A stretch of 64,000 nucleotides of DNA from Synergistetes bacterium HGW-Synergistetes-1 (GCA_002839185.1 PGXO01000004.1:186001-250000); one strand, 5' to 3'. Positions 18,209 through 48,429 are shown, counted from the first letter of the stretch. Translations and numbers: made by a program. The notes: a model not told the origin generated them from the letters alone.

Positions 18209-18612
18209 AAGACAATAAAATTATCGTAAAAAAATCTAAGGAAAATTCAGTTTGTGAGAAGTGGCGATTTTATCGCCGCGAAGCAGTAGTTTTAAAACAT
18301 AGCTAAGCAATTGCTGAGCGGTCGCTGAACAATTTTAAAATCCTAATAGAACCGTCGTCCCCGAATGCTTGAATCGGGGATCCAGTGTCTCTGAAATTAG
18401 ATTATAACTGACTTTTGCGTTCTTGAAATGTCAGAAGCCAGGTTAACCACTAAACGTTGGCAGATCTATAATCCCCAAAAAGAAATAAATATCAGTCATA
18501 TCCTTATGCAGTAACAATGGTGAAACTGTCGGACATCAATCCGGCGTGAAGCTGCGGCAAAAAATGCCGTATAAAGCAGTTTTGTTGTAAACTGATATTA
18601 CACCACTTTACT
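18209..18612. repeat. Repeat-filled gap before the Synergist-CTERM gene
   Basis: Contains a linker-hairpin unit at about 18257-18287 (GAGAAGT, then GGCGATTTTATCGCC, then GCGAAGCAG), 11-bp words at 18300-18330 (GCTAAGCAATT, GCTGAGCGGTC, GCTGAACAATT), and a GTCGTCCCCGAATGCTTGAA / CGGGGATCC palindrome at about 18352-18387. No gene is visible. Confidence 0.65.
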
Positions 18613-21528: not shown

Positions 21529-23789
21529 AGATGAATATAAATTCTCTGCATCGCTTGAAACCGCTAAAAATTGAGCAGATCGCCCCGCAAGTCCGGGAAC
21601 AGGGCAGTTTTTTGCTCAAATTAACAGTAATCGCGGCCATATTACTCTTTTTTGGGAGTGTATTGCTGCCGGTGTCATCCTGTGCGGCTGAAAATATGCC
21701 ATTCGTCCCGGCTGACCCTGTCTTGCCTCTGTCGCAGATAAAACCGGGAATGAAGGCTGAAATAAGAACAGTACTGCGTGGAACTAAGATATCCAGGTTT
21801 CCTGCTACTTTGCTTGGCATAGTTCCAAGGAAGACAAGCCCGAAAAACCTTGTCCTTATAAGGGTAGACGACCCTTATGTGAGGGCAAATGGAGGCATCG
21901 CAGCAGGAATGAGCGGTTCTCCTGTATATGTCGGAGGGAAACTCGTCGGCGCTATAGGTTACGGATGGCAGTTCAGCGACAACAACCTTGGCCTTGTCAC
22001 ACCGATCGAGGAAATGGTCAAAGCCTTCAACTGGCCGGACAAAATTCCGCCTTTCGGAGTATCGGTTAAGATACCGAAAGAGCCGATCAGTGCGGACATT
22101 AAACCTGATGCTAAAGAGAAAAAAACAGAAGAGCCGGTTTCAGACGATGTCAAAGAAGAACCGGCCTCCTGTGATTTTGCAATAGAAGGGATCACATCAG
22201 CGGACGTAACATCAGGAGACCAGTGTCCTGAAGAAGATCCTGCAACTGATAAAGGAACGGAAGAAACAGAAGAGCCGAACGACGAAACGGTTTCCGATGA
22301 TATCAAGACCGAACCAACATCAGAAGACATCGCAAAGCTTTATGATGCCGAACTTGTACCCCTTGGGATGCCGATACTTGTCGACGGCATCAGCAACAGG
22401 GTCACAGAGGAGTTGAAAAAAAGGCTCGGATTGCCTCTGATACCTCTGGGCGGAGCATCGTCAGAAGGCACTGCCGCCAAACTCAACACAAAACCGGAAC
22501 CCGGATCAGCGATAGGGGCCTCTCTTGCATGGGGTGACATACAGATCGGCGGGATAGGGACACTTACAGCGCTTTCAAAAGAAGGACGCTTCCTTGGCTT
22601 CGGTCACCCAATGGCCGGTCAGGGTGCAGTCGCATACCCATTGACAGAGGCTACGATACTTCAGGTCATACCCGGCATGGAGAGCTCATTCAAACTTGGG
22701 TATCAGGGTCCGATAATCGGAATAATAACCCAGGACAGGCCTGAAGCCATTGGCGGCTACATCGGGCAGCTGGCGCCCGCGATAAGTTACAGGGTAAGGT
22801 TCAACGACGTTGACAGCAAAAAAGATACTGTAAAAAGATTCCAGACTGTTGCGGATTCTTTCACCGGTCCGGTGATCGGAAGCATGGGAATGCTTGGGAT
22901 AATTGACGATCTATGGGCACGAAGGGGAGAGGGCACTGCCATTCTCAAATATAAATTCTACGGAGGGAACCTTCCAAAAGGATGGGAGAGGAGAAATATC
23001 TTCTTTTCAGAACAGGACCTTATGGGCTCGTTGCTGACGGAATTCGATAACCTTGCGGAGCTCTTTTCGCTCAACCAGTTCCAGGAGATCAGGCCGTTTG
23101 GCGTAGAGCTTGACGTTGAAATAACGAGGGACGCCCGTGTTGTTTTCATTGAAAAACTTGAAATCGTTGACAAAAAAGACTCTTATGCCCCGGGTGAGAA
23201 GATAGAACTTGAGATAACGCTGAGGCCCTGGCGCAAAAGATCGATGATAAAGAGGATCCCGATAACTGTTCCGCAAAATGCTGTAGGTTTCTGCGAGATC
23301 CTTGTCAGGGGCGGCGGCATCATGGAACCGGAGCAGGAATCGCTTGCAACGGGTCTGCGCGCGATATCGAGCCTTGACGACCTTCTGAAAGAACTGAGCA
23401 TAAAGGAAACCAACAATCAGATCGTTGCGGAGATAGACGGTCCTGAGGCCAGAGATAAAGAGAGCAAGGAAAAGCCAAGCATTGAAGACCTCCTTGACGA
23501 CCGCCTGCAGAGTGAGATCCGGGCAGAACGCATCAAAAAGGGCGCAATGGTCATAGTAGACACGAATTACTATGTAGAAGGCCTGCTCCGTAAAATGATA
23601 AAAATAAAAAGATCAGACGGCAAAGAAGAAGCAGGCCCTACTCCTGAAGAAGAAACCACAATGAGGGCTCAGGCCGAAGCGCTGGAAGCGGCAGGCGGTG
23701 AAGTCGAAGAAGCTCCTCCGGAAACGGAAGGATCTATTTCCGTGAAGCGGCGATTTAATCGCCGTGAAGCAATAGTGAAGCAATGGTGA
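21525..23789 (+). CDS. SpoIVB peptidase S55 domain protein
   Basis: 754 residues. A hydrophobic export segment lies at about 29-50 (LLKLTVIAAILLFFGSVLL). The S55 serine-protease signature is GGIAAGMSGSPVYVGGKLVG with the serine near residue 130; GFGHPMAGQGAVAYPLTEA is a second conserved block. In Bacillus SpoIVB cleaves SpoIVFA to activate a sporulation sigma factor, but this phylum does not sporulate, so a different envelope-signalling target is likely. An acidic insertion (about 190-270) repeats EEPVSDD-like segments. TTG start overlapping the prfB stop (TTGA). The last residues (VKRRFNRREAIVKQW) are encoded by intergenic repeat sequence. Confidence 0.85.
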   Translation: MKMNINSLHRLKPLKIEQIAPQVREQGSFLLKLTVIAAILLFFGSVLLPVSSCAAENMPFVPADPVLPLSQIKPGMKAEIRTVLRGTKISRFPATLLGIVPRKTSPKNLVLIRVDDPYVRANGGIAAGMSGSPVYVGGKLVGAIGYGWQFSDNNLGLVTPIEEMVKAFNWPDKIPPFGVSVKIPKEPISADIKPDAKEKKTEEPVSDDVKEEPASCDFAIEGITSADVTSGDQCPEEDPATDKGTEETEEPNDETVSDDIKTEPTSEDIAKLYDAELVPLGMPILVDGISNRVTEELKKRLGLPLIPLGGASSEGTAAKLNTKPEPGSAIGASLAWGDIQIGGIGTLTALSKEGRFLGFGHPMAGQGAVAYPLTEATILQVIPGMESSFKLGYQGPIIGIITQDRPEAIGGYIGQLAPAISYRVRFNDVDSKKDTVKRFQTVADSFTGPVIGSMGMLGIIDDLWARRGEGTAILKYKFYGGNLPKGWERRNIFFSEQDLMGSLLTEFDNLAELFSLNQFQEIRPFGVELDVEITRDARVVFIEKLEIVDKKDSYAPGEKIELEITLRPWRKRSMIKRIPITVPQNAVGFCEILVRGGGIMEPEQESLATGLRAISSLDDLLKELSIKETNNQIVAEIDGPEARDKESKEKPSIEDLLDDRLQSEIRAERIKKGAMVIVDTNYYVEGLLRKMIKIKRSDGKEEAGPTPEEETTMRAQAEALEAAGGEVEEAPPETEGSISVKRRFNRREAIVKQW

Positions 23790-23850
23790 AACGGTTGTGA
23801 AAAGCGGCTGAGCAATCGCTGAGCGGTTGCTGAGCAATAGCTGAGCGATT
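23738..23850. repeat. Linker-hairpin plus 11-bp periodic block at the S55 gene 3' end
   Basis: Starts inside the coding sequence with GTGAAGC then GGCGATTTAATCGCC, followed by GTGAAGCAATA, GTGAAGCAATG, GTGAAACGGTT, GTGAAAAGCG (10), GCTGAGCAATC, GCTGAGCGGTT, GCTGAGCAATA, GCTGAGCGATT. The word changes from GTGAAGC to GCTGAGC partway while the period stays at 11. Confidence 0.75.
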
Positions 23851-30878: not shown

Positions 30879-33659
30879 ATGGCAAATGATTATAAAGACA
30901 CACTGTTTCTCCCGCAGACGGATTTTCCGATGCGGGCCAACCTTTCACAGAGGGAACCGGAGTATCTCAAATTCTGGTACGACATCGACCTCTACGAAGA
31001 ACTGAAAAAAAAGAACAAGGGCAAACCCTCATTCATTCTCCACGATGGGCCTCCATACGCCAATGCGAGCATACACATCGGTACAGCGACCAACAAGATC
31101 CTCAAGGACTTCATAGTCAAGTACAAATGGCTGCGCGGCTATTTTGCGCCATACGTGCCGGGATACGACACACATGGCCTTCCTATAGAACTTAAGGTCC
31201 TCAAGGAAATGGGCATTAACCGTGATAACATCAGCCCGGTAGAACTTCGTGAAAGATGTACGGAATATGCCAAAAAGTTTGCAGGAGTCCAGACGGAACA
31301 GTTCAAGCGCCTTGGTGTGATCGGAGACTGGGATCACCCCTACATGACGCTTGTTCCAGCATACGAGGCCACACAGCTTGAAGGATTTGCCAAGATGGTC
31401 GATAAAAACCTTGTATATAAGGGACGCAAGGCGATCCATTGGTGCATCGACTGCGAAACTGCCCTTGCGGCTGCGGAAATAGAGTACTCAGACGAAGTAT
31501 CGCCCTCGATATTCGTAGCCTACACATACAAAGACGCTGCAAAAGTTTTCCCGCAGCTTGAAGGAAAAGATGTTGACATAATCATCTGGACGACCACTCC
31601 GTGGACACTTCCGGCTTCAATGGCCGTCGCTGTCCACCCCAGGTTCGACTATGGATTCTATGAAGTCGGGGACAAGGTATACCTCATCGCGCAGGGACTG
31701 AAGGACAAAGTAATAAAGGCCACAGGCCTTGACCTAAAAGAGCCGATCATCTCATGCAAGGGCGCTGAACTTGAAAATTCAAAGGCGCTGCATCCCTTCT
31801 ACGATAAGGAAGTCCTGGTAGTACTTGCTGAGTATGTAGATCTTGAGACAGGAACAGGCTGCGTTCACACAGCACCCGGACATGGCAACGATGACTACGA
31901 GACCGGCGTGCGCTATGGCATTGAAATATACAATCCAGTTGATGAGACAGGACATTACTACTCCGACACGCCGCTTTTCGCAGGAATGTCGCTCTCAGAA
32001 GCTGAGAAGAAGATCTTCGAAATACTGACGGAATCAAAAAAACTCCTCGGACGTGAGAAGCTCTCCCACTCTTACCCGCACTGCTGGCGCTGCAAGAAAC
32101 CCGTAATATTCAGGGCGACCGAGCAGTGGTTCGTCTCAGTTGCAGACTTCAGGGACGAAGCGCTTAAATCCATAGACGAAGTCAGATGGATACCCGACTG
32201 GGGCAAGGAACGCATCACGAACATGGTCAGGGACCGTTCAGACTGGTGCATAAGCAGACAGAGGACATGGGGAGTTCCTATCCCGGCCTTCTACTGCGAA
32301 GACTGCGGAGAGGTCATCCTTACAGGAGACAGGGTACTCAGGGTAGCCGACAAGGTCAGGGAACTCGGCAGCAACTGCTGGTGGAGCCTAAGCCCGGAAG
32401 AGCTGATCGGCGATCTGGCCGTATGTCCCAAATGCGGCAGCAAACACCTCCGCAAGGACGAAGACATCATGGACGTATGGTTCGATTCAGGCTCCAGCCA
32501 TTCGGCAGTTCTTGACAACTGGGAAGACCTCCGCTGGCCGGCAGACTTATACCTTGAGGGAAGCGACCAGCATCGCGGATGGTTCCAGACATCGCTCCTC
32601 AACAGCGTTGCGACCCGCGGAACTGCTCCATACAAGATAGTGCTGACCCATGGATTTATCATGGCCGGAGACGGACGCAAGATGTCCAAGTCCCTTGGAA
32701 ACGCCATGACTCCTGAAAACATAATAGACAAAAACGGCGCGGACATCCTCCGCATCTGGGTAGCCTCCTCCGATTACCGCGGCGATGTCCGCATTTCGCA
32801 GGAGATATTCGAGAACCTTATAGAATCATACCGCCGCATCAGGAACACGGCGCGGTTCCTGCTGGCCAACCTCAAGGGATTTGATCCGGAAAAAGACAGC
32901 ATGCCCAATGATAAGCTTTCGCAGATAGACCAGTACATACTGATCAAGCTCGAAAAGCTTCGTTCAAGATGCACGAACGGATTTGACGAGTATGAGTTCC
33001 ATCAGCCCATGACGCTTATACACCAGTTCTGTGACAACGAGCTCAGTTCATTCTACATAGACGTGAGCAAGGACAAGCTCTACGCAGACGGCGAACATGA
33101 TGACAGCCGCCGCTCGATCCGCACCGTAATGTGGAAAGTGCTCAGGACCATAACGCAGATGATGTCCCCGGTCCTCTCCTACACAGCGGAAGAGATATGG
33201 CAGAAAATGCGCGAGATGGATCCCTCACTGCCGAAGAGCGTATTCCTCACAGACTGGCCGGAACCGCTTGGTGAAGGATTAGATACCTCTGTTGAGGCAC
33301 TTTGGGACAGCATCATGAATGCCAGACAGGGAGTCCTCCGAGGACTCGAAGCAGCAAGAAGCAAAGGAGTCATCGGTCACTCACTCGACGCACATGTCCA
33401 GATAAAGCTCAGCGACTACTACAAAGGACTTGCGGGCAAGGTCAGCGACGAGACATGGGAGTTTGTCCTAATCGTATCTTCATGTGAGATAGTTGATGAG
33501 GTCAGGGGCTCAGAAGTCGTATACGAAGACGAAACCACGGGACTAGTGATAGGTGTTGACAAGTCCAAAGACGAAAAATGTCCGCGCTGCTGGAAGAGAA
33601 GGCCCGAAGTTGCAGAAAAAGGCCTCTGCAGCCGCTGCAAAGATGTCATCGGAGACTAA
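30879..33659 (+). CDS. ileS: Isoleucyl-tRNA synthetase
   Basis: Charges tRNA-Ile with isoleucine and edits valine. 926 residues, normal for bacterial type. HIGH motif in PPYANASIHIGTATNK (about 57-72); KMSKS motif in DGRKMSKSLGNAM (about 600); CP1 editing domain with WTTTPWTLPA and GTGCVHTAPGHG; C-terminal zinc finger CPRC...CSRC near residue 905-920. TAGGAGG precedes the ATG. The rluD start overlaps its last 17 bases. Confidence 0.98.
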   Translation: MANDYKDTLFLPQTDFPMRANLSQREPEYLKFWYDIDLYEELKKKNKGKPSFILHDGPPYANASIHIGTATNKILKDFIVKYKWLRGYFAPYVPGYDTHGLPIELKVLKEMGINRDNISPVELRERCTEYAKKFAGVQTEQFKRLGVIGDWDHPYMTLVPAYEATQLEGFAKMVDKNLVYKGRKAIHWCIDCETALAAAEIEYSDEVSPSIFVAYTYKDAAKVFPQLEGKDVDIIIWTTTPWTLPASMAVAVHPRFDYGFYEVGDKVYLIAQGLKDKVIKATGLDLKEPIISCKGAELENSKALHPFYDKEVLVVLAEYVDLETGTGCVHTAPGHGNDDYETGVRYGIEIYNPVDETGHYYSDTPLFAGMSLSEAEKKIFEILTESKKLLGREKLSHSYPHCWRCKKPVIFRATEQWFVSVADFRDEALKSIDEVRWIPDWGKERITNMVRDRSDWCISRQRTWGVPIPAFYCEDCGEVILTGDRVLRVADKVRELGSNCWWSLSPEELIGDLAVCPKCGSKHLRKDEDIMDVWFDSGSSHSAVLDNWEDLRWPADLYLEGSDQHRGWFQTSLLNSVATRGTAPYKIVLTHGFIMAGDGRKMSKSLGNAMTPENIIDKNGADILRIWVASSDYRGDVRISQEIFENLIESYRRIRNTARFLLANLKGFDPEKDSMPNDKLSQIDQYILIKLEKLRSRCTNGFDEYEFHQPMTLIHQFCDNELSSFYIDVSKDKLYADGEHDDSRRSIRTVMWKVLRTITQMMSPVLSYTAEEIWQKMREMDPSLPKSVFLTDWPEPLGEGLDTSVEALWDSIMNARQGVLRGLEAARSKGVIGHSLDAHVQIKLSDYYKGLAGKVSDETWEFVLIVSSCEIVDEVRGSEVVYEDETTGLVIGVDKSKDEKCPRCWKRRPEVAEKGLCSRCKDVIGD

Positions 33660-34665
33660 AAGAGAAGATATAAATATAAAAGCGGGGGAGAGGGAAGCCT
33701 CTTCCCTCTTTTTCTATGAGGGTGAAGATTCTCAGGAGAGTATCGCTGTAACTGAAACATTCACAGTATCAGAAGAGATGTCCGGTCACAGGCTTGACTT
33801 TGTCATCTCAAGGCAGCTTGGCCTCAGCAGGGGTTTTTCGCAAAAGCTCATAAAAGAGGGAAGGACATCGCTCCTCCCCGAAAGGCGCATCAAGTCCTCT
33901 ATAAAAGTTGATACGGGTGATGAAATATCGGTCTCGGTCCCCCCGGAAGTGACCCTCGACCTCGAACCTGAGGACGTGCCGTTCGAAGAAGTATACTCAG
34001 ACACCGACATAATAGTGATAAACAAGCCCGCAGGCCTGGTAGTCCATCCCGCTCCCGGCCACTGGACAGGGACCCTGGTCCACGGACTTCTTTACAGATA
34101 CCCGGACATCGGCTGCCTCAACGGAGTAAAGCGCCCCGGCATAGTCCACAGGCTCGACGCCACAACATCCGGCCTTATGGTTGTAGCAAGGAACGGCCTT
34201 GCACAGGAAGGGCTCTTCAGGGACTTCAAAGCCAGAAGGGTAGAAAAGGAATACCTCGCGCTTTGTTGGGGAACGCCAGCCTCACCAAAAGGCGAGATCC
34301 GCTATCCCATAGGCCGCGACCCATACAACAAGCTGAGAATGGCCGTAACGGAAGACGGCAGGGACGCCTGGACGGACTACGGGACCATCTGGAGCAGAAA
34401 CGGATACACCCTGATAAAATGCCGCCTCCACACCGGCCGGACCCACCAGATAAGAGTCCACCTGGCCGCTATAAAATGCCCCCTGGTTGGCGACAGGACC
34501 TACGCCCCCTCAAGGCCATCGCCCTTCGAAGAGGACAGGGTCTTTCTGCATTCATGGAAGCTAAGTTTCGAACATCCCCGCTCGAAGCAGAAAATGGCTT
34601 TTCGCGCGCCGTTGGCGCCAGAGCTGTCTGCACTGCTGGCAGAAATAGGCGAAGTGCGGCGATAA
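33643..34665 (+). CDS. rluD: RluA/RluD family ribosomal pseudouridine synthase
   Basis: 340 residues. N-terminal S4 RNA-binding domain (about 45-105, HRLDFVISRQLGLSRGFSQK) and a catalytic domain with the family motif HRLDATTSGLMVVA, whose Asp172 is the nucleophile. RTHQIRVHLAAIKCPLVGD is the usual C-terminal signature. The lineage resembles RluD, which modifies 23S rRNA helix 69, but the exact site is not provable. ATG 33643 overlaps ileS. The last residues (EVRR) and the TAA stop lie in a linker-hairpin repeat (GCGAAGT, GCGGC...GCCGC). Confidence 0.92.
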   Translation: MSSETKREDINIKAGEREASSLFFYEGEDSQESIAVTETFTVSEEMSGHRLDFVISRQLGLSRGFSQKLIKEGRTSLLPERRIKSSIKVDTGDEISVSVPPEVTLDLEPEDVPFEEVYSDTDIIVINKPAGLVVHPAPGHWTGTLVHGLLYRYPDIGCLNGVKRPGIVHRLDATTSGLMVVARNGLAQEGLFRDFKARRVEKEYLALCWGTPASPKGEIRYPIGRDPYNKLRMAVTEDGRDAWTDYGTIWSRNGYTLIKCRLHTGRTHQIRVHLAAIKCPLVGDRTYAPSRPSPFEEDRVFLHSWKLSFEHPRSKQKMAFRAPLAPELSALLAEIGEVRR

Positions 34666-35209
34666 TATGCCGCGCGAATCTATTGGTAATCGATGGGGAA
34701 TCGGTGGCGAGTCAATGGGCAGGGTCGGGGAATTGCGGCGTGGGTCATACCGCGGTGAATTCGCGACATTCGTCGCTGGAGAATTTGCTCGCTACGCATC
34801 GCGGAGAATTGCGGCCATAGGCCGCGGAGGTTCAAAAGAACCGTCGTCTCCATATGCCCAACCCTCCGTCGTTCCCGTATGTCCCACCCTCCCGTCGTTC
34901 CCGTATGCCTCTGAGCGGGAACCCAGGTCTGCACTTGGTTTTTGACTTTTTTGGAGTGATCACATTCCTTTGTAAATTTAAGGTTTGACAATAAACAAGA
35001 ATGTTGAATCTGAAATTATATACAAATTCAAAATCGTTAGACCTGGATCCCCGCTCAGTGTCATACGGGGATGACGTAGGGGAAGGTCATACGTGGATGA
35101 CGGAGAATTAGACATAGGGCAAGGATGGATACGGGCAGCATTCTGGATTACTAATAAAATATTGAAATACGAAAAATATATGATAAACCACGAAAGAAGG
35201 AACAAAGGC
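34645..35209. repeat. Mixed repeat gap after rluD
   Basis: 34647-34670: linker-hairpin with GCGGCGATAATATGCCGC. 34676-34735: 11-base words GAATCTATTGG, TAATCGATGGG, GAATCGGTGGC, GAGTCAATGGG. 34750-34830: GAATTCGCGACATTCGTCGC and GGAGAATT-linked hairpins. 34840-34935 and 35040-35100: three or more TCGTTCCCGTATG / GGATCCCCG palindromes. No gene is supported before 35210. Confidence 0.7.
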
Positions 35210-35971: not shown

Positions 35972-37636
35972 GTGAAGGGGGTCCTATCCATCTCTTTCGG
36001 GCCTGAACTTGTCTGGATCTGGAACAGGGAGCTAAAAAAACATATTGGCAAAAGAGTACAGAAGCTTGAGGGCGGGGACAGCTGGGTGGCAGTTTCTATT
36101 TCGGGGAGCACTGTGCTGTTGCTTTCATGGGGGGCACAGAACTGCGGAATAGCAGTTATCTCAGATAAAGAAAAAAAAGATCTCATTTCAAGTGCCAAGC
36201 AGACTCCGCCGATAGTAAACGCCCTCAAAAGCAACATTTCCGGAGCGGAGCTTACTGATGTCTGCCAGCTTAACAGGGACAGGATCATCAGACTTACCTT
36301 TACAAAGACTATAGGCGCCGGATTCTCTAATACAAGGCATCTGATCCTTGAGACGATGGAGCGCTACAGCAACCTCATTCTCTTAGATGAAAACGACATG
36401 GTCCTTGAAACAGCCAAGCATATACATCCTGCAGACAACAGGTTCCGCTCCGTTCTGCCCGGCCAGCCTTACTCCATGCCCCCGGAATTTAAGGGCATTG
36501 CGTTGGAGGAATGGCTCGAACACCCCTCATCCGAAACTCTAAGATCTGTTGCAGGATTTGGAAAAAAACTTCTTGAGAGATTTGCCGAAATGGAAGTCGA
36601 AAGAGCAGCCCGATACCTGAATGGATTTTACAAAAATGAAACTGACATTTCCTCCTATATTCCGCAGCTTGTAAAAAAATATCTCACCGCATTACCCGGG
36701 TTGTTGGAAGGAGCGTCGGCCGTACAGGATACAACAGTTGCCGATACAGGACGGACAGTTGTTTTAAGTCCGATCGCTGATGTATCCCTGAACAGAAGAC
36801 GTAGGGTTATCACTGATCATATAGAACGCGAAACAGTGAGGCGAGAAAGGCAGATAGGAGACATTGAAAAGCTTCTTCACGAAGAGGATGCGGAAAAATA
36901 TAAAAAATATGGTGATGCTCTTGTTGCGAATTCATGGCAGATAACTCCCGGAGCCGAAAAGGCCTGTGTGACCTACTGGGACAGTGAGGGCAATGAGGTC
37001 AGGGAAACGGTGCCTCTTGATCCCAGGCTCTCCGCGGCAAAAAATTCAGCACGTTATTTTGCGAAATACAAGAAGATAATTTCGGCACAGGAAAGGGCAG
37101 CCAAAGTTCTGATAAAAGTTAAAGAAGAGCTGGAGGATCTCAGGGAGCAGATGGCGATCATACAATCAATGGATGACACAGAGTCGCTTGCTCTTGTTGA
37201 AGAGGAACTTGGCATCAAAAATGTGAAGCAGCGAAACGTTAAAAAGAAGACCGCCGCCCCCCTGCCTCCGCATAAGAGATTCGATCTTGAATATGCACTT
37301 GTTTTTGTCGGATTCTCTTCCAAGGGCAACAGATACGTTACATTCAAGCTTGCCAATGCTGATGATATTTGGTTTCATGCGCAGGGCGTACCCGGAGCCC
37401 ATGTCATATTGCGATTCACTTCAGCCCCAACCGAAGAAGAAAAGGATAAGGCCATCAAGTTCTGTGCCTCCCTTGCCGCTAAATACAGCAGGAACGGCGA
37501 TAACCCCGGACAGAGGGTAGATTATACCCTCAGAAAGTACGTTATCCCTATCAAGGGCGGAGAGGCCAATGTGACGTATAGGAATTTTAAAAGCATTGCT
37601 GCCGGGGAATTAAAGCATCTTGAAGCGCTAGCTTAG
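35972..37636 (+). CDS. rqcH: Rqc2 homolog RqcH / NFACT (fibronectin-binding A-like) protein
   Basis: Binds stalled 50S subunits carrying peptidyl-tRNA and directs C-terminal alanine tailing. 554 residues: NFACT-N domain (1-200), a coiled-coil middle (about 285-400), and NFACT-R at the C-terminus with ADDIWFHAQGVPGAHVILRF. The GTG at 35972 is the only usable start and sits within 9 bases of a repeat element; there is no proper Shine-Dalgarno upstream, and the N-terminus is shorter than usual, so the 5' end may have been remodelled. Its last residues (ALA) and TAG stop lie in repeat-element sequence GCGCTAGCTTAGC. Confidence 0.9.
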   Translation: MKGVLSISFGPELVWIWNRELKKHIGKRVQKLEGGDSWVAVSISGSTVLLLSWGAQNCGIAVISDKEKKDLISSAKQTPPIVNALKSNISGAELTDVCQLNRDRIIRLTFTKTIGAGFSNTRHLILETMERYSNLILLDENDMVLETAKHIHPADNRFRSVLPGQPYSMPPEFKGIALEEWLEHPSSETLRSVAGFGKKLLERFAEMEVERAARYLNGFYKNETDISSYIPQLVKKYLTALPGLLEGASAVQDTTVADTGRTVVLSPIADVSLNRRRRVITDHIERETVRRERQIGDIEKLLHEEDAEKYKKYGDALVANSWQITPGAEKACVTYWDSEGNEVRETVPLDPRLSAAKNSARYFAKYKKIISAQERAAKVLIKVKEELEDLREQMAIIQSMDDTESLALVEEELGIKNVKQRNVKKKTAAPLPPHKRFDLEYALVFVGFSSKGNRYVTFKLANADDIWFHAQGVPGAHVILRFTSAPTEEEKDKAIKFCASLAAKYSRNGDNPGQRVDYTLRKYVIPIKGGEANVTYRNFKSIAAGELKHLEALA

Positions 37637-37960
37637 CAACATTTGTGCTCCTTCGCCTTCAACGTATGCAGGCACAATGGCAAAGTGCGGCGTGAAGATG
37701 CCGCGATAAGTGGCGATTTCATCGCCGTGAAGCAGTCGGGAAGCAGTTGTAGGGGCGGTCAAACGGACGATCGTCAAACAGTAGTCAAACGGTTGTGAGA
37801 GAAGGCGGCGAGGATCATGCCGCGGTGAGTTTGTGGCCTCCGGCTTCGGAGAATTCGCGACACTTGTCGCTGGAGAATTTGGCGGAGGCTTCATCCGCCG
37901 GGGAATTGGCCCTTGATATTGTTGAGTGGTTGTAAAAATATTGACAATATCGGTTTCTCG
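37625..37960 (+). repeat. Partial palindrome-ended element plus linker-hairpin arrays after rqcH
   Basis: 37627-37672: element core GCGCTAGCTTAGCAACAT...CAACGTATG overlapping the rqcH stop. 37683-37730: GCAAAGT + GCGGCGTGAAGATGCCGC and ATAAGT + GGCGATTTCATCGCC. 37728-37800: 11-base words GAAGCAGTCGG, GAAGCAGTTGT, GTCAAACAGTA, GTCAAACGGTT. 37800-37905: GAGAATT-linked hairpins (GCGACACTTGTCGC; GGCGGAGGCTTCATCCGCC). No gene is visible. Confidence 0.7.
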
Positions 37961-38001
37961 ACTTGGAATACCAATTTCTTATTGCTTGGAGGGACAGAGT
38001 C

Positions 38002-38876
38002 ATGAGTAATTTGAAAAAAACTTCCTTAATTACTGTACAGAATATTCCTGTAACGATCATGAATGTCAATCAAAATGACTACATCTGCCTGACAGATATG
38101 GTGAAAGCTCGGGCGGACGCACCACGAGCAGCGGATATTATCAAAAATTGGCTGCGCACCCGATCTACTCTGGAGTTTTTGGGTACTTGGGAAATTTTAT
38201 ATAACCCCGCTTTTAAAGTGGTCGAATTCGACCACTTTAAAAGCGGAGCCGGTCTCCATACTTTCACGCTGAGCGCAAAAGAATGGATAGAAAAAACAAA
38301 CGCAATTGGAATGTATGTTCAGGTCGGGAGGTATGGTGGTACATATGCACATAAAGATATTGCGTTTGAATTCGGGTCAGCGATCAGTCCCATCTTTAAA
38401 CTGTACCTGCTCAAAGAATACCAACGACTTAAAGACGACGAAAATGACCGTTTAAAGCTTGAGTGGACCGCAAAGCGTTTTTTGTCTAAGAACAATTACC
38501 TGATCCATACAGATGCAGTAAAGAATTATGTTTTACCGCAAAAGAATTTTGCAAAAAGTATGGAATGGCTTGCGTATGCTGACGAAGCTGATCTGCTGAA
38601 TGTAGCGCTGTTCGGATGCACAGCCAAAGCGTGGCGTGATGCGAACCGGATATTCCAAAGAATTATAATATCAGAGACTACGCTTCTATTCTTGAACTGA
38701 CGGTATTATCAAACTTGGAAACCCACAATGCTGAGCTGCTAAAAGAAGGAATGGATAAGGCTGATCGTTTTGATACTCTATACAAAATCGCACAATATCA
38801 GCTTCAAGTGTTAATGGAAGCAGAAAAAATAAAGGAATTGCCGGAAGTAATTGAGAAAAGAAGGGAAATTAAATAA
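38002..38876 (+). pseudogene. KilA-N domain protein, frameshifted
   Basis: KilA-N is a DNA-binding domain of phage and mobile-element proteins. The intact part (38002-38646) has YICLTDMVKA, NWLRTRSTLEFLGTWE, GRYGGTYAHKDIAFEFGSAI, all typical. At AWRDAN (about 38646) the frame breaks: continuing as written gives a short tail and a TGA at 38698-38700. Shifting to the frame beginning GAT at 38649 restores DIPKNYNIRDYASILELTVL and continues to a TAA at 38874-38876, as in full-length relatives (about 290 residues). One missing C in AACCGG explains it. TGGAGGGA precedes the ATG. No other phage gene lies nearby. Confidence 0.8.
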
Positions 38877-38884
38877 TAATTGTG

Positions 38885-39085
38885 TTGTAAAGCCGGCTCA
38901 GGTGCATACTGGGATGACGTGGAGGGTGCATAGCGGGATGACGAAGAAGAGCAGGTTCACCGTTCTTAAAAACTGATTTGCAATAGATTCCCGACCAATC
39001 AGCAATCGATTCCCGCGGCACGATCCACGCCGCAGCCTTTTCCAACTGATTTGCAACAGATTCCCAACCGACTCCCGCGGCACGG
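38885..39085. repeat. 11-bp periodic block with GCGGCAC hairpins before the DUF1015 gene
   Basis: AACTGATTTGC, AATAGATTCCC, GACCAATCAGC, AATCGATTCCC, hairpin GCGGCACGATCCACGCCGC, then AACTGATTTGC, AACAGATTCCC, AACCGACTCCC, and GCGGCACGGGCCCATGCCGC. Two different 11-base words alternate, giving a 22-base dimer. Preceded at 38900-38945 by CCGGGATGACG-type units. A TATAAT at 39102-39107 may be the -10 of the next gene. Confidence 0.7.
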
Positions 39086-42647: not shown

Positions 42648-43131
42648 GATATCCTCCATGAGTAATAAAATCTTAATTATCATTATAGATTTTTGCTTAC
42701 CGATTTGACCGTCAAATCAGCTTGATAATTATACTATGTAAGAGCCAAATTTAAAGATATCAAAAATTGTCCGGGAAGAAAGACCGGATGTGCATGTCTG
42801 TGATATCCTATTTACTCAAACAGCATGAGTGAGATCCCGGATGATGCAAGAAATTTAATCGCGCGTAAAAATTTCTAGAATTTAACACCATATTTCTTAT
42901 TCGAGAATATAATACATCTTGTCTTAATTGTTTATGCTTACAAAGCTGACTTACAAAGCTGATATCAAATGTTGCATTTGACATAAAGACTAAAGTATAA
43001 TTTTGTGCTAGAATTACCCTACTCTAAGGTATTCTTAAAACTAGTAGTATTATGACTTTATTCAGATATTTCACAAAGTTATTTTTAAATAGTTCTCTAT
43101 TATATGTTTATTGCAAAGGACTGGCTTTATT
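42648..43131. promoter_or_regulatory. AT-rich divergent promoter region of the polysaccharide cluster
   Basis: About 480 bases between the divergent wzz-like and pglF-like genes, without repeats of the families seen elsewhere. TTGCAT (42972-42977), 18-base spacer and TATAAT (42996-43001) form the best plus-strand promoter. No JUMPstart or ops motif was seen. Confidence 0.45.
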
Positions 43132-45024
43132 TTGATAAAAGAACATTGTTTTCTGAAAAGTCTTTTGTCTATTTATCTTAAAGTTGCGTCAAGGAGGAGA
43201 TATGTGCTCTTCCTTGACTTTATTTCACTTGCCCTCGCGGTCTACTTCGGATACGCCCTCAGGCTTACTTTCTTTATTGAAATGGGCTACGCCGGAGAAC
43301 TTGTTCAGACTATTTTCATCTTCTCCGCCTGTATTCTTATCCCCCTCATTTGGGGTGGGGTTTACAAAGTCGTGTGGCCCAGAGCGAGCGTAGAAGAATA
43401 TACGATCCTGCTAAGATGGTATGTTGTAGGCACAGCCATCTTCCTGGTCCTCTTCAAGATAAGCGATGAATTGAGGATCCCCAGATCTTCCCTCTCTATA
43501 CTTATTATCCTCGGTCTCTTCTTTCTTACAACGACTCGAGCTTTCTGGAAGCTTGCATTCGTGACACGCTCCTTAAGAACATGCGAACAAAAGCGGGCAC
43601 TTATTATCGGTGCAGGAGAGGCGGCCACGATGCTTGCAAGGGACCTTATCAGAAACGACACGGATCTTAAACCGATCGGCTTTGTCGACGATAAACCCGA
43701 ATTGAATAACATGTTGCTGGCATCACTTAAGGTGCTTGGAACTACAGAAGATATCCGCAAGATAGTAATAGCCGAGAATGTTACGGTAGCATTAATAGCT
43801 ATTCCCTCCGCGCCGGGCCATAAGATAAAGGAATTTATCGGAACAATGGATGGCCTAAATATTGAAGTCAGGATACTGCCCAGCCTTCTGGATATTGCAG
43901 ACGGAAACGTAAGCGTCAAACTACTCCGTTCTGTTAAACTTGAAGACCTCCTGCGCAGGGAGCCAGTCAAACTGGACAACCCGGAGATAGAAAACCTTAT
44001 CAGGGGCAAACGCGTCCTTGTTACAGGCGCCGGCGGCTCGATCGGATCCGAGATTTGCAGGCAGGTAGCTGCAAAAGGGCCTTCCGAACTGCTTGTTCTT
44101 GGTCACGGAGAGCAGTCCATCTATAACCTGCTTGAATCATTCAGCCAGTCCGGCAACAAAGTGCCTATTGTACCGATAATCGCTGACATAGCGGATAAGG
44201 TCACCCTTGAATCGATATTCAAAAAACACATGCCGCACCTTGTCTTCCACGCCGCTGCCCACAAGCATGTACCGCTGATGGAAGATAACCCAAGGGAGGC
44301 CCTTCGCGTCAATTCTTTCGGGACAAGGACACTTGCGGAAATGGCAGGCAAATACCAGGTGGAGAGAATGGTAATGATATCAACGGACAAGGCGGTCCAC
44401 CCCTCTAGTATAATGGGAGCAACAAAAAGGATAGCCGAGCGGATGCTCTTCTATGTCCAGAAGAGATATCCTGATACATCCTATATGGCAGTACGCTTTG
44501 GCAACGTCCTAGGAAGCCGGGGCAGTGTCATCCCAAAGTTTGAGCAGCAAATCGAAAGGGGAGGCCCTGTCACCGTAACGCACAAAGATATGAAGCGCTA
44601 CTTCATGCTTATCCCTGAGGCAGTAAGCCTTGTGCTCCAGGCCGGAACAATGGGAAGCGGGGGAGAACTTTTCGTCCTTGATATGGGAGAACCCGTAAAC
44701 ATAGCAGAAATGGCCGAGACCCTCATAAGGCTCCACGGTCATGAACCATACAGGGACATCAAAATAGAATTCACAGGTATCCGCCCCGGAGAAAAACTCT
44801 ACGAAGAGCTCTTCTACGATCCGGACCACGTAGGTACAACGTCCAGCGAGAAGATATATCTGAGCAAGTTCTCCCCCGAGAAAGAATCGCTGCTTCCCAG
44901 AGTCGAAAGGCTTTTGGCAGACTCGGCGGAAGCTTCTTTGTCTGAAGCAGAGTTAAAAGCCGCAATATTCCAGCTGGGCGGTAATGGGGAGAATGTGGCG
45001 GCGGAGCCGCCGATAAGGCTATAA
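43132..45024 (+). CDS. pglF: Membrane-bound nucleoside-diphosphate-sugar 4,6-dehydratase (PglF/WbpM/CapD type)
   Basis: Converts UDP-GlcNAc to a 4-keto-6-deoxy sugar, first step to bacillosamine- or QuiNAc-type sugars. About 630 residues. Four hydrophobic helices lie in the first 120 residues, then a CoA-binding-like domain (RALIIGAGEAATMLAR), then the dehydratase (LVTGAGGSIGSEICRQ near 298; MISTDKAVHPSSIMGATKR; GEKLYEEL). TTG 43132 follows AAAGGA by 11 bases; TTG 43111 is an alternative. The last residues (NVAAEPPIRL) are encoded by the first unit of the hairpin array. Confidence 0.9.
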   Translation: MIKEHCFLKSLLSIYLKVASRRRYVLFLDFISLALAVYFGYALRLTFFIEMGYAGELVQTIFIFSACILIPLIWGGVYKVVWPRASVEEYTILLRWYVVGTAIFLVLFKISDELRIPRSSLSILIILGLFFLTTTRAFWKLAFVTRSLRTCEQKRALIIGAGEAATMLARDLIRNDTDLKPIGFVDDKPELNNMLLASLKVLGTTEDIRKIVIAENVTVALIAIPSAPGHKIKEFIGTMDGLNIEVRILPSLLDIADGNVSVKLLRSVKLEDLLRREPVKLDNPEIENLIRGKRVLVTGAGGSIGSEICRQVAAKGPSELLVLGHGEQSIYNLLESFSQSGNKVPIVPIIADIADKVTLESIFKKHMPHLVFHAAAHKHVPLMEDNPREALRVNSFGTRTLAEMAGKYQVERMVMISTDKAVHPSSIMGATKRIAERMLFYVQKRYPDTSYMAVRFGNVLGSRGSVIPKFEQQIERGGPVTVTHKDMKRYFMLIPEAVSLVLQAGTMGSGGELFVLDMGEPVNIAEMAETLIRLHGHEPYRDIKIEFTGIRPGEKLYEELFYDPDHVGTTSSEKIYLSKFSPEKESLLPRVERLLADSAEASLSEAELKAAIFQLGGNGENVAAEPPIRL

Positions 45025-45120
45025 ACATTTGAGAAGTGCCGGTGAAACCGGCGAGAAGTGCGGTTTGAAAAACCGCGGGAAGTGCAGGCGAAGCCTGCGA
45101 GAAGTGTCGGCGAAGCCGAC
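44991..45120 (+). repeat. Hairpin array F1 (GAGAAGTG linker, downstream of pglF)
   Basis: Five units, each a linker (GAGAATGT, GAGAAGT, GAGAAGT, GGGAAGT, GAGAAGT) followed by a hairpin: GGCGGC-GGA-GCCGCC, GCCGGT-GAA-ACCGGC, GCGGTTT-GAA-AAACCGC, GCAGGC-GAA-GCCTGC, GTCGGC-GAA-GCCGAC. Arms differ in every unit yet pair perfectly; four of the five loops are GAA. Unit length is 22-24. The first unit overlaps the pglF coding end. Confidence 0.88.
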
Positions 45121-45140
45121 GGAAGAGATTTAGGGTATTT

Positions 45141-45276
45141 ACAACGCTTATCGTGACGAAGTCACACTTATCGTTGCGAAGCAACCCTTCTCGTCACAAC
45201 GCGACACTTTTCGTCACATAGTGACTCTTCCCAAAGGTTTTAAACAACCCTTCTCGTTGCGAAGCAACACTTCTAA
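45141..45276 (-). repeat. Hairpin array R1 (CACTTCTC linker, upstream of the AlbA_2 gene)
   Basis: Hairpin first, linker after, mostly 20 bases per unit: GTGAC-GAA-GTCAC then ACTTATC; GTTGC-GAA-GCAAC then CCTTCTC; GTCAC-AAC-GCGAC (one mismatch) then ACTTTTC; GTCAC-ATA-GTGAC then TCTTCCC; a gap; then GTTGC-GAA-GCAAC and ACTTCT. The linker is the reverse complement of the F linker, while loops still read GAA or similar on the plus strand. Confidence 0.85.
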
Positions 45277-45315
45277 ACCATTTCCCAGTGGTTTTAAAGG
45301 AGATAAGGATAATTT

Positions 45316-46773
45316 ATGACTCTCGGTTTTGAAAACGAAACACTGGAGTTTAAAAAATCAACCCGCGAACTCAAAGAAGCCATTGTATCTATTTGTGCGA
45401 TTTTGAATAAACATGAGTATGGAGAGTTATATTTTGGTATTAGACCTGACGGTACTCCTGTAGGACAGGATATCAGTGAAAAAACATTGCGTGATATAAG
45501 TGCGGCGATCAACAATTTTATTGTTCCTCAGATTTTTCCGGAGGTTAAAGAAGTAATAATAGATGGCAAATCATGCGTACATGTTAAATTTGAAGGGCAT
45601 AATCCACCATATTTTGCCAATGGTAAGGCTAGAATTCGTGTTGCTGATCAGGATATTTTGATGTCTCCTGAACGAATTGAAGAGTATGTAATGAAAAAAA
45701 ATGACAATACTAACCTTTGGGAGCAACAAGTTTCTGATTACACAGTTGAAAAAGTTGAGGATGTATTACTGGAAAATTATATTGACAGAGCACGTGAAAT
45801 TAAACGCATTGATTTTGATTATTCGGATAAAAAAACAGTTCTGAATAAGCTTTTTCTTACACAGGGAGAATTTTTGCTGAACGCAGCAAAAGTGCTTTTT
45901 TGCGATAGCATCCTTGCAGAATTGCAGATGGCAATTTTTGCCACAAGCGAAAGACTGACATTCAACGATATCCAAAGAAAACATGGAAATATTTTTGAAC
46001 TTGTTGGGGCAGCAGAGTTGTATATCAGAAACAATATGAAGTGGAAAGTTGATTTTGATGGTTCAAGAGAACGCAAGGAAACACCGGAAATACCTATCCA
46101 GGCATTACGAGAAGCACTTATTAATTCATTTTGTCATAAAGACTACAACGCACAGCAGTGTAACGAAGTAGCGATATATAAAGACAGGATAGAAATATAC
46201 AACCCGGGAAAATTCCCTGAGGGATATACTCCTGAAGATTTTATTCTGAGAGATGAGAGACCGGTAAGAAGGAATCCTCTGATAACCCAGATTCTTTATT
46301 ATTCTAAAGATGTTGAGAGCTTCGGGTCGGGATTGAAACGGATCACAAATGCCTGTAAAGAAGCAAATGTAAAAGTGGATTATAAATTGATGAAATCAGG
46401 ATTTGTGGTAGTCTTTCAAAGGGATAAAGATATTATTCCAATGGCACAAGTTGAGGCACAAGTTGAGGCACAAGTTGAGGCACAAGTTGAGGCACAAGTT
46501 GAGGCACAAGTTGAGGCACAAGTTGAGGCACAAGTTGAAATTTTGATAATGAGAGCCTGCCAAAAAACGCCACTTTCTTCTGGAGAAATAGTTATAGCAC
46601 TTGGACACAAACAGCTTAGCGGTAACCTCCGCAAAGCCCTTGTAAAATTGAGAAAAGAAGGATTTCTAGAATTTACTATCAAAGATAAACCCAGGAGTAA
46701 AAGCCAAAAATACAGATTAACCGAAAAAGGCGATAAGCATTTGAGAAGTGCCGGTGAAACCGGCGAGAAGTGA
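45316..46773 (+). CDS. AlbA_2 / HATPase_c_4 putative DNA-binding and ATP-binding regulator
   Basis: 485 residues. N-terminal AlbA_2 (Schlafen-like) domain: [53 protein letters not shown]. Middle helical region, then a GHKL-type ATP-binding domain: [49 protein letters not shown]. After it come eight tandem AQVE repeats, then a winged-helix end ([15 protein letters not shown]). Such proteins are annotated as transcriptional regulators or RecG-like ATPases and occur in variable regions. It is a stranger in a sugar cluster. The final twelve residues and the stop lie in the downstream array. AAAGGAG precedes the ATG. Confidence 0.88.
46444..46539 (+). repeat. Coding 12-bp tandem repeat (AQVE x 8)
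   Basis: Eight nearly identical copies of GCACAAGTTGAG, the last ending GAA. Copy-number change would lengthen the interdomain linker by four residues without breaking the frame. The complementary strand has an accidental open frame made of LCLN repeats. Confidence 0.95.
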
Positions 46774-46947
46774 CGGTGAAACCGTCGAGAAGTGGCGGAC
46801 CAAGTCCGCCGAGAAGTGCGGTTTGAAAACCGCGAGAAGGCGCAAAGCATTTGAGAAGTGCGGCGAAGGGATACCGCGAGAAGTGACGGACTAAGTCCGT
46901 CGAGAAGTGCAGCGTAAACGCTGCGAGAAGAGTCGGCGGAGCCGACG
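46743..46947 (+). repeat. Hairpin array F2 (GAGAAGTG linker, after the AlbA_2 gene)
   Basis: Eight good units plus one degenerate piece: GCCGGT-GAA-ACCGGC; GACGGT-GAA-ACCGTC; GGCGGAC-CAA-GTCCGCC; GCGGTT-TGAA-AACCGC; a short GGCGCAAAGC remnant; GCGG...CCGC (imperfect); GACGGAC-TAA-GTCCGTC; GCAGCG-TAAA-CGCTGC; GTCGGC-GGA-GCCGAC. Linkers are GAGAAGT or GAGAAGA. The AlbA_2 gene's stop TGA is the GTGA of the second unit. Confidence 0.88.
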
Positions 46948-46974
46948 GAATGGTTTCGAAGTATTTAAACAACA

Positions 46975-47056
46975 ACTACTTCTCAACCACTTCTCGTTGC
47001 AAAGCAACCCTTCCCGTCGCGTAGCGACACTTCTCGTGACGAAGTCACACTTCTCC
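46975..47056 (-). repeat. Hairpin array R2 (CACTTCTC linker, before the four-helix-bundle gene)
   Basis: Bare linkers ACTTCTC and CACTTCTC, then GTTGC-AAA-GCAAC, CCTTCCC, GTCGC-GTA-GCGAC, ACTTCTC, GTGAC-GAA-GTCAC, ACTTCTCC. Units are 20 bases. The order GTTGC, GTCGC, GTGAC is a rotation of the order in R3. Confidence 0.85.
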
Positions 47057-47089
47057 ATGGTTTACAAAGTATTTAAAGGAGGTCCACCC

Positions 47090-47452
47090 ATGCCGGACTT
47101 TGGATTTCAGAACCTTGATACTTATCATCTTGCAAAAATGCTTGTTATCGAAACCTATAAAACGACAGATACATTTAGTAACAGTGAGAAATATGGTCTG
47201 TCTCAGCAGATGAACAGAGCAGCAGTGTCAATACCTTCGAATATTGCCGAAGGATATGCAAGAGAAGGAAGTAAGGATAAATGCCATTTTCTTAACATAG
47301 CATACGGATCATTGATGGAACTGGTTTGTCAGTTTGAAATTGCATGGGAATTAGATTTCGTTGAAGAAGAAAAATACCAAGATTTTAAAAATAAAGCTCA
47401 TAAGCTGGCAATCAAGATAAGCAAATTTAGAAACTATTTAAGTAAAAAATAG
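47090..47452 (+). CDS. Four helix bundle protein (S23 / rRNA intervening-sequence family)
   Basis: 120 residues, with the family signature QMNRAAVSIPSNIAEGYARE and ending FRNYLSKK. Relatives are encoded in intervening sequences of 23S rRNA genes in some bacteria and resemble the Avd accessory protein of diversity-generating retroelements; their function is unclear. Here no rRNA gene and no reverse transcriptase is near. A very strong AAAGGAGG lies upstream of the ATG. The gene is bounded by hairpin arrays on both sides (R2 before, F3 after). Confidence 0.9.
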   Translation: MPDFGFQNLDTYHLAKMLVIETYKTTDTFSNSEKYGLSQQMNRAAVSIPSNIAEGYAREGSKDKCHFLNIAYGSLMELVCQFEIAWELDFVEEEKYQDFKNKAHKLAIKISKFRNYLSKK

Positions 47453-47567
47453 AGAAGAGTCGGCGGAGCCGACGAGAAGTGCGGTTTGAAAAACCGCGGG
47501 AAGTGCAGGCAAAGCCTGCGAGAAGTGCTGGCATAGCCAGCGGGAAGAGTCGGCGTAGCCGACGGAA
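47453..47567 (+). repeat. Hairpin array F3 (GAGAAGTG linker)
   Basis: Starts 1 base after the four-helix-bundle stop: GAGAAGA + GTCGGC-GGA-GCCGAC; GAGAAGT + GCGGTTT-GAA-AAACCGC; GGGAAGT + GCAGGC-AAA-GCCTGC; GAGAAGT + GCTGGC-ATA-GCCAGC; GGGAAGA + GTCGGC-GTA-GCCGAC; GGAAGG. Confidence 0.88.
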
Positions 47568-47587
47568 GGATCTAGGGAAGTTACAAC

Positions 47588-47745
47588 GCTTCTCGTGACG
47601 AAGTCACACTTCTCGTTGCGAAGCAACCCTTCTCGTCGCAAAGCGACACTTCCCGAAGGTTTGACGGAGTTACAACGCTTATCGTGACGAAGTCACTCTT
47701 CTCGTTGCAAAGCAACACTTCTCGTCGCATAGCGACACTTCTCGG
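47588..47745 (-). repeat. Hairpin array R3 (CACTTCTC linker, before the sugar transferase)
   Basis: Two rounds of three hairpins in the same order: GTGAC-GAA-GTCAC, GTTGC-GAA-GCAAC, GTCGC-AAA-GCGAC, then after a 30-base gap GTGAC-GAA-GTCAC, GTTGC-AAA-GCAAC, GTCGC-ATA-GCGAC, separated by ACTTCTC-type linkers. Confidence 0.88.
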
Positions 47746-47784: not shown

Positions 47785-48429
47785 TTGTTATTTATGAGCG
47801 GAGAAAGCTATAAACCAATAAAACGCATAATAGATCTAACTCTCTCAATTGCGGGCCTCGTAGTCTTGTCGCCGGTATTGTTGGTTTTGGCTTTCGCTAT
47901 CAAACTGGACTCTCCCGGTCCTGTTCTTTTCAAGCAAAAACGGGTGGGGATCAACAAGACTCACTTTAATATTTATAAATTCAGGACTATGAGGATGGAT
48001 ACACCTAAGGACACGCCTACACATCTGCTGGAAGATCCGGATAATTACATTACAAAGATGGGGCGTTTTTTGAGGAAGACCAGCCTGGACGAGTTGCCTC
48101 AGATAATTAACATATTGTACGGACAAATGTCTATAATAGGACCCAGACCTGCACTTTGGAATCAGTATGACCTTATTGAGGAACGTGACAAATACCGTGC
48201 AAATGACATAAGACCGGGGCTGACTGGATGGGCCCAGGTAAACGGACGCGATGAACTGCCGATAGAAGTCAAGGCAAAATATGACGGAGAATACGTACAT
48301 AGGATGAGTTTCCTATTTGACCTGAAATGTTTCCTTGGCACGATTGCAGTGGTAATGAACCGCGACGGTCTTGTCGAAGGCGGCACAGGCAAGATGAAAG
48401 ATAAACAGGAGAAACTTAATGACAACTAA
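47785..48429 (+). CDS. Initiating sugar phosphate transferase (PglC/WcaJ-type bacterial sugar transferase)
   Basis: Transfers the first phospho-sugar to undecaprenyl phosphate. 214 residues: one membrane-embedded helix at about 15-36 (LTLSIAGLVVLSPVLLVLAF), then FKQKRVGINKTHFNIYKFRTM, SLDELPQIINILYGQMSIIGP with the catalytic Asp-Glu, and RPGLTGWAQVNGRDELP. The small size fits the PglC class. TTG 47785 has GGAG about 9 bases upstream; ATG 47794 lacks one. Together with the PglF-type enzyme it may start the chain with a bacillosamine-like sugar. Confidence 0.9.
   Translation: MLFMSGESYKPIKRIIDLTLSIAGLVVLSPVLLVLAFAIKLDSPGPVLFKQKRVGINKTHFNIYKFRTMRMDTPKDTPTHLLEDPDNYITKMGRFLRKTSLDELPQIINILYGQMSIIGPRPALWNQYDLIEERDKYRANDIRPGLTGWAQVNGRDELPIEVKAKYDGEYVHRMSFLFDLKCFLGTIAVVMNRDGLVEGGTGKMKDKQEKLNDN

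Follow-up and report, generated by a model that had tools for sequence, protein, structure and literature searches.

Tagged REPs carry a conserved unpaired tag beside a stem, and most of their families show alternative complementary residues in that stem; they have short loops, form facing dimers and clusters, and prefer the 3' ends of genes (PMC3733652). In REPINs, compensatory changes are common in the spacer hairpins (PMC3116915). The repeats described here resemble GTAG- and CGTC-tagged REPs and BIMEs (PMC3733652; PMC8266576) in consisting of a short palindrome flanked on one side by a conserved unpaired tag, with stems of 5-13 bp that use alternative complementary residues and loops of 2-4 nt. 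Like them, they are intergenic, clustered and mostly near 3' ends, sometimes reach into genes, and form facing pairs that can co-fold. The initial annotation of this locus had seen in its variable stems and constant foot the reverse of the usual REP conservation, but this is the very pattern of tagged REPs (PMC3733652). The differences lie elsewhere. The tag is GRGAAGTG or GGRGAATTT, of 7-9 nt; the units stand head to tail, which is rare among REPs, in arrays of 3-8 with many stems per array; and a Y1/RAYT gene is absent from this genome. The units lack a GTAG (or GYRG) tag, their feet being GRGAAGT/GATAAG and elsewhere GGxGAATT, and they also lack the CGTC tag of CGTC-tagged REPs (RPE). They do share with GTAG-REPs the short palindrome (stem 5-13 bp, loop 2-4 nt, complementary alternatives), the high copy number and the extragenic position near gene 3' ends, and with BIMEs the layout of palindromic units in both orientations with motifs between them, here F then R with a spacer. 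Because they carry a tag other than GTAG or CGTC and no Y1_Tnp is found here, we regard them as REP-like rather than as REPs.

REPINs and tandem REPs of Pseudomonas fluorescens also form inverted pairs with compensatory changes in spacer hairpins, and some form tandem arrays; their REP sequence is highly conserved with tandem units 72-112 bp apart, whereas our stems are variable and our units follow one another directly every 20-28 bp (PMC3116915). The parts of the source on sponge hairpin elements that we cite (PMC2800124) describe conserved stems with substitutions in the loops, as here, in mitochondrial elements, and mention neither a constant tag nor facing arrays. As in CRISPR, a constant element alternates with a variable one, but CRISPR has direct repeats of 24-48 bp and unique spacers, whereas here only 7-9 nt are constant and the variable parts are nearly all palindromic. 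Neisserial intergenic mosaic elements (dRS3) are likewise composite intergenic mosaics. The GTCATTCCCGG...CCGGGATCC-like repeats beside our arrays are ones that we take to resemble dRS3; to our knowledge, the neisserial elements do not consist of arrayed hairpins with a tag and variable stems. The suggestion that no described family has this design agrees with Rfam, where only tRNAs exceeded the gathering score in the sources searched and nothing relevant appeared at a loose threshold. Our search of the literature on repeats of this phylum found nothing relevant.

The window is the whole stretch of DNA analysed, 64,000 nucleotides from Synergistetes bacterium HGW-Synergistetes-1. Three gaps between genes (44991-47745) each consist of an F array followed by an R array (Table 1). 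An F unit is the tag GRGAAGTG and then a hairpin, and an R unit is a hairpin and then CACTTCTC. We counted 18 F hairpins (5, 8 and 5 in gaps 1, 2 and 3, beginning at 44997) and 14 R hairpins (5, 3 and 6), the numbers first estimated; four R hairpins (45193, 45256, 47635, 47724) were assigned by hand reading and the rest by script. The linker, initially called constant, is indeed a GRGAAGTG foot, but the variants GATAAG, GAGAAGA and CACTTATC occur. Array stems have 5-7 bp and loops mostly 3-4 nt. The R stems are of the 5-bp form GTNNC, a set distinct from the 6-7-bp F stems, and one of them in R array 1 (45193-45205) has an A/C mismatch. There are about 12 distinct F stems and 4-5 distinct R stems, and the 32 hairpins are not independent inventions: the stem order GCGGTTT-GCAGGC-(GCTGGC)-GTCGGC is found in both gap 1 and gap 3, and an 89-bp tandem duplication (copy at 47579-47741) makes up R array 3. 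Three-nucleotide loops read [AG]NA on the gene strand in 24 of the 26 scored in the window arrays (14/16 F, 10/10 R), with none of the reverse type. Since loops keep the same gene-strand polarity in both halves, an R array is not the inverse of an F array as a whole.

Table 1. Arrays, neighbouring genes and further mosaics of the same design in the window.
Feature	Position	Strand	Description
Same-design mosaic	34652..34850	+	Class A hairpin with the stop of the RluD-like ORF (ORF end 34665), 11-mers, class B (GGxGAATT) units
Same-design mosaic	37677..37910	+	Class A pair (GCGGC, GGCGAT), 11-mers, class B (GGxGAATT) units
WbpM/CapD-like polysaccharide biosynthesis gene	43111..45024	+	Pfam Polysacc_synt_2, 3e-113
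F array 1	44990..45125	+	Five foot+hairpin units (GGCGGC, GCCGGT, GCGGTTT, GCAGGC, GTCGGC); tandem period 22
R array 1	45143..45275	-	Five 5-bp hairpins with CACTTCTC-type feet; period 20
SLFN_AlbA_2 + HATPase_c_4 gene	45316..46773	+	Pfam; ORF runs into F array 2, which supplies the stop
F array 2	46743..46950	+	Eight hairpin units; internal copy of the gene-end sequence GCATTTGAGAAGTG
R array 2	46977..47055	-	Three hairpins (GTTGC, GTCGC, GTGAC)
23S rRNA-intervening-sequence (four-helix bundle) protein gene (IVP)	47090..47452	+	Pfam 23S_rRNA_IVP, 1.3e-33; between arrays
F array 3	47452..47567	+	Five units; first foot uses the G of the TAG stop codon
R array 3	47588..47745	-	Two runs of three hairpins, each GTGAC, GTTGC, GTCGC
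Bacterial sugar transferase gene	47785..48429	+	Pfam; downstream of the arrays

The arrays abut stop codons, and they supply the stop in three genes of the window. The last codons and stop of the WbpM/CapD-like gene lie in and adjoining the first unit of F array 1. The gaps do lie between genes, as initially described, but the first unit lies within the 3'-terminal part of the preceding ORF. The TAA of an RluD-like ORF (33553-34665, named by eye) is also inside a class A hairpin unit. Across the genome, 8 of 20 array ends that face a gene 3' end lie at most 30 nt from the stop, against 0 of 20 that face a 5' end, distances that depend on whole-genome gene calls made by simple codon-based prediction. 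The WbpM-like protein is conserved to the same point in this genome (G000) and in two relatives (G001 and G002), after which different arrays supply the stop: GAGAAGTG units in two species and GGCAAGC 11-mers in the third. The AlbA_2/HATPase_c_4 gene has an internal repeat, eight perfect 12-bp copies of GGCACAAGTTGA (protein QVEA) at 46443-46538, fewer of which are present in the AlbA gene remnant of G001.

The arms differ from unit to unit over a constant foot and change together, as first noted. The pairing is far beyond chance. When units are cut out by their tags alone, the two arms match completely in 37 of 43 F-type units, whereas redistributing the arms over the units leaves 5.6 such units (p<=0.0002). 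For 22 distinct 22-nt units from several genomes, 97.0% of stem positions form standard pairs (74.6% when shuffled), covariation is 0.668 against 0.208 in shuffles and at most 0.092 when the frame is slid, and double-sided changes affect 35 cells, where shuffles give 9.9. Class B stems, which follow the tag GGxGAATT, covary too (99.0% paired; 0.469 vs 0.200). Between nearest copies, five of six unit sets show 0.20-0.44 differences per site and link in the loop and 0.05-0.08 in both stem and foot, i.e. about 3-6 times more in the loop, with a stem rate that is biased downward because units were chosen with at most one unpaired position. The exception is the 20-nt unit set, which is diluted by chance matches. 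Firmer evidence than this rate comes from paired stem changes under identical loops (GACGGT/GCCGGT, GCAGCC/GCAGCG, GCCTGAC/GCCTGAT, GCGGCTT/GCGGTTT), a clean example being GACGGT[GAA]ACCGTC to GCCGGT[GAA]ACCGGC. The arms of relatives stay paired as well, and uncompensated drift, which would have spoken against the initial claim, is not what we see. Compensation had been taken to mean that the paired state itself is kept. The covariation statistics confirm that pairing is maintained, but selection on it does not follow, since DNA template switching homogenises the arms of inverted repeats without selection and could produce such a pattern (PMC8604942).

When the three gaps are folded as RNA, the prediction pairs F tags with R tags and lets the hairpins protrude on both sides, with a gain from tag pairing of about 28-41 kcal/mol over local hairpins; for gaps 1 and 3, the z of the fold is about -5.7 to -7.4. 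The opposite strand and DNA parameters give a similar fold and both strands are about equally stable, so that folding cannot choose between RNA and DNA.

The same design recurs across the 2.17-Mb genome, which we pieced together from stretches (about 1.2 kb of one contig is absent and about 1.8 kb is N). Arrays of GAGAAGTG are dense only at the polysaccharide locus and occur elsewhere as single or paired units. A second foot family (class B), with the tag GGRGAATTT or GGxGAATT(T/C), shows the design at about 20-23 places, where 79 units delimited by tags each have a hairpin of their own and F halves precede R halves. Any tag with a perfect hairpin gives 228 matches, 105 of them in 31 clusters of at least two units, while some of the isolated matches are due to chance. 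Wherever a cluster contains both orientations (12 clusters), it runs strictly F then R, in line with the BIME-like layout first suggested, and none of the 14 mixed class B clusters identified by feet alone is reversed. This order makes the feet of one half complementary to those of the other, so that each gap can fold into one branched ladder. We also found 43 related arrays of 11-bp tandem repeats (GCTGAGCARTN, GGGAATCAATT, GCTGAGCAATA, GTGAAGCAATA and others) with no clear hairpins, 41 of them intergenic, against 0 in the reversed control; in the window, such arrays stand at 1512-1544, 18302-18334 and 23764-23850. Many gaps are mosaics of array units, 11-mers and GTCATTCCCGG...CCGGGATCC repeats.

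We scanned 188 genomes of the phylum, judging by eye which matches were real hairpins and which were chance. Class A arrays occur in four other members of the genus and in one genome of a sister genus (G030), and class B in six of eight genus members with one convincing match outside (G016); the remaining matches of both classes look like chance. Both foot families are thus essentially confined to one genus. A search for three consecutive GRGAAGTG feet, with one genome per species, gave no comparable strong-hairpin arrays in the stretches fetched among the matches listed, and one gap tried in each of the plasmid and phage collections found no similar DNA.

In orthologous gaps, whole units are swapped at unit borders while their neighbours still align; the content of the gaps differs, though none of the four orthologous gaps offers a clean empty site. 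Identity to G001 is 86-95% along the window up to 40.4 kb and mostly 69-77%, where matchable, in the polysaccharide locus, apart from one stretch of 88.6% at the AlbA gene end. At the orthologous locus of G001 (L143 17500-20000, minus strand), all that is left of the AlbA gene is a C-terminal remnant flanked by arrays, and an IVP gene was not found. We considered the IVP gene as a carrier of the arrays and rejected it: its relatives in G001 and G006 (L365, L366) are flanked by other intergenic repeats, not by GAGAAGTG arrays. These flanks suggest that accessory genes often lie between such mosaics. Elsewhere in the window (37632-38920), a KilA-N-like gene (named by eye) and its array are 98.8% identical to G001 over 1,291 bp and the next gene 94.6%, which could reflect either recent exchange or strong conservation.

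Our preferred reading, to which we give a probability of about 0.6, is that the arrays belong to a genus-specific family of palindromic repeats with tags, arranged in the manner of REP/BIME intergenic mosaics. On this reading they are a real, well-supported and apparently undescribed variant of these. The unit is a constant unpaired tag followed by a short, mostly perfect hairpin, repeated head to tail, and two facing arrays with complementary tags allow the gap to form a single branched foldback of DNA or RNA. This arrangement and the potential to fold are both evident, and from the modelled folds we infer that such folding may also take place in the cell. Between species, the units behave as interchangeable blocks that are duplicated, swapped and lost at unit borders, and within a unit the loop drifts while the stem changes in pairs. 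Hairpin formation in single strands may help units to be copied and kept perfect, through recombination and template switching or through some enzyme, and units may persist because they are tolerated, and perhaps useful, directly behind stop codons. At the polysaccharide locus, the arrays border accessory genes and probably provide homology for exchanging them. Several observations count against this reading: the single loop polarity, tags other than GTAG and CGTC, the rarity of head-to-tail units, the lack of Y1 and of a clean empty site. The single polarity in particular points to some strand-specific role that purely selfish DNA leaves unexplained.

Alternatively, the arrays could be RNA elements under selection, i.e. 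ladders of hairpins in transcribed 3' or 5' UTRs that terminate or insulate transcription, or shield the ends of mRNAs, between genes of the polysaccharide cluster, with stems that covary because the RNA must fold. The [AG]NA loops on the gene strand in both halves and the position of the arrays against stop codons fit this explanation, and hairpin clusters have been proposed as terminators in which poly-U trails are not always needed (PMC8355165). Yet our hairpins precede GAGAAG or CACTTCTC and no U-tract of an intrinsic terminator was found; terminator-like matches are weak and number 6 against 2.5 in shuffles. Single-sided stem changes in class A (GT 2, AC or CA 4) show no G-U excess, and as a discriminator between RNA and DNA these mismatches are too few, without a clear excess. 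Moreover, the two halves of a class B array are inverted copies down to their loops and show no strand polarity, class B arrays occur in gaps of every gene arrangement, and both strands fold about equally well. We therefore consider selected RNA elements unlikely, though they retain some plausibility. A bolder reading, in which complementary tags zip facing arrays into a branched ladder acting on transcripts or single-stranded DNA, in a genus-wide structure-maintained system with its own copying or correcting enzyme and with a sequence that may vary provided that the tags still pair and the hairpins still form, seems to us more doubtful still.

The arrays could also be a by-product of DNA metabolism, in which template switching between arms would create the hairpins and keep them perfect, together with tandem slippage on the foot and with neither function nor transposition. 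The arm homogenisation without selection described above (PMC8604942), the tandem duplications within arrays such as the 89-bp copy, the divergence of loops over identical stems and the change of foot sequence from locus to locus all agree with this. Template switching can, however, invert loops, and no inverted loop occurs in the window arrays; the confinement to a genus, the ordered modules at distant loci and the strict F-then-R order would also be left unexplained, and this origin appears a little less credible again. That R array, gene and F array form an exchangeable cassette with recombination borders, in a role comparable to that of Neisseria intergenic mosaic elements, is very improbable: the accessory genes between arrays (AlbA-like, IVP, KilA-N-like), the AlbA remnant at the same place in G001 and the 98.8% segment beside 94.6% speak for it, but the neighbours of most class B arrays are ordinary genes.

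Read as REP/BIME-like repeats, the arrays add an apparently undescribed lineage to the tagged palindromes, with two tags and one architecture in one genome. Their many paralogous and orthologous copies allow arms, loops, tags and units to be compared, so that they form a natural data set on stem covariation, which bears on whether covariation originates from selection on folded RNA or DNA or from template-switch correction of inverted repeats. They are also a warning that compensatory change alone is no proof of structured RNA.

A Y1/RAYT transposase was also considered as the mobiliser of the repeats and rejected. No such gene was found in this genome or in G001; Y1 genes are present in G002 and G007, and the G002 copies are flanked by another repeat, GGGGTCAGACC. 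In G002, two near-identical genes for 311-aa Y1 (RAYT/TIRYT-like) transposases (L424 and L426) are preceded by GGGGTCAGACCTACACA repeats, a repeat that also adjoins an array in G001 (L142). Finally, a scan of viral contigs gave one array: a contig of IMG/VR (L281 8145-8235) carries about three 22-bp units of GGGGGGAAGTGTCC (GGGAAGTGT units) with a partial hairpin, directly after a stop codon and similar in look to the arrays described here.
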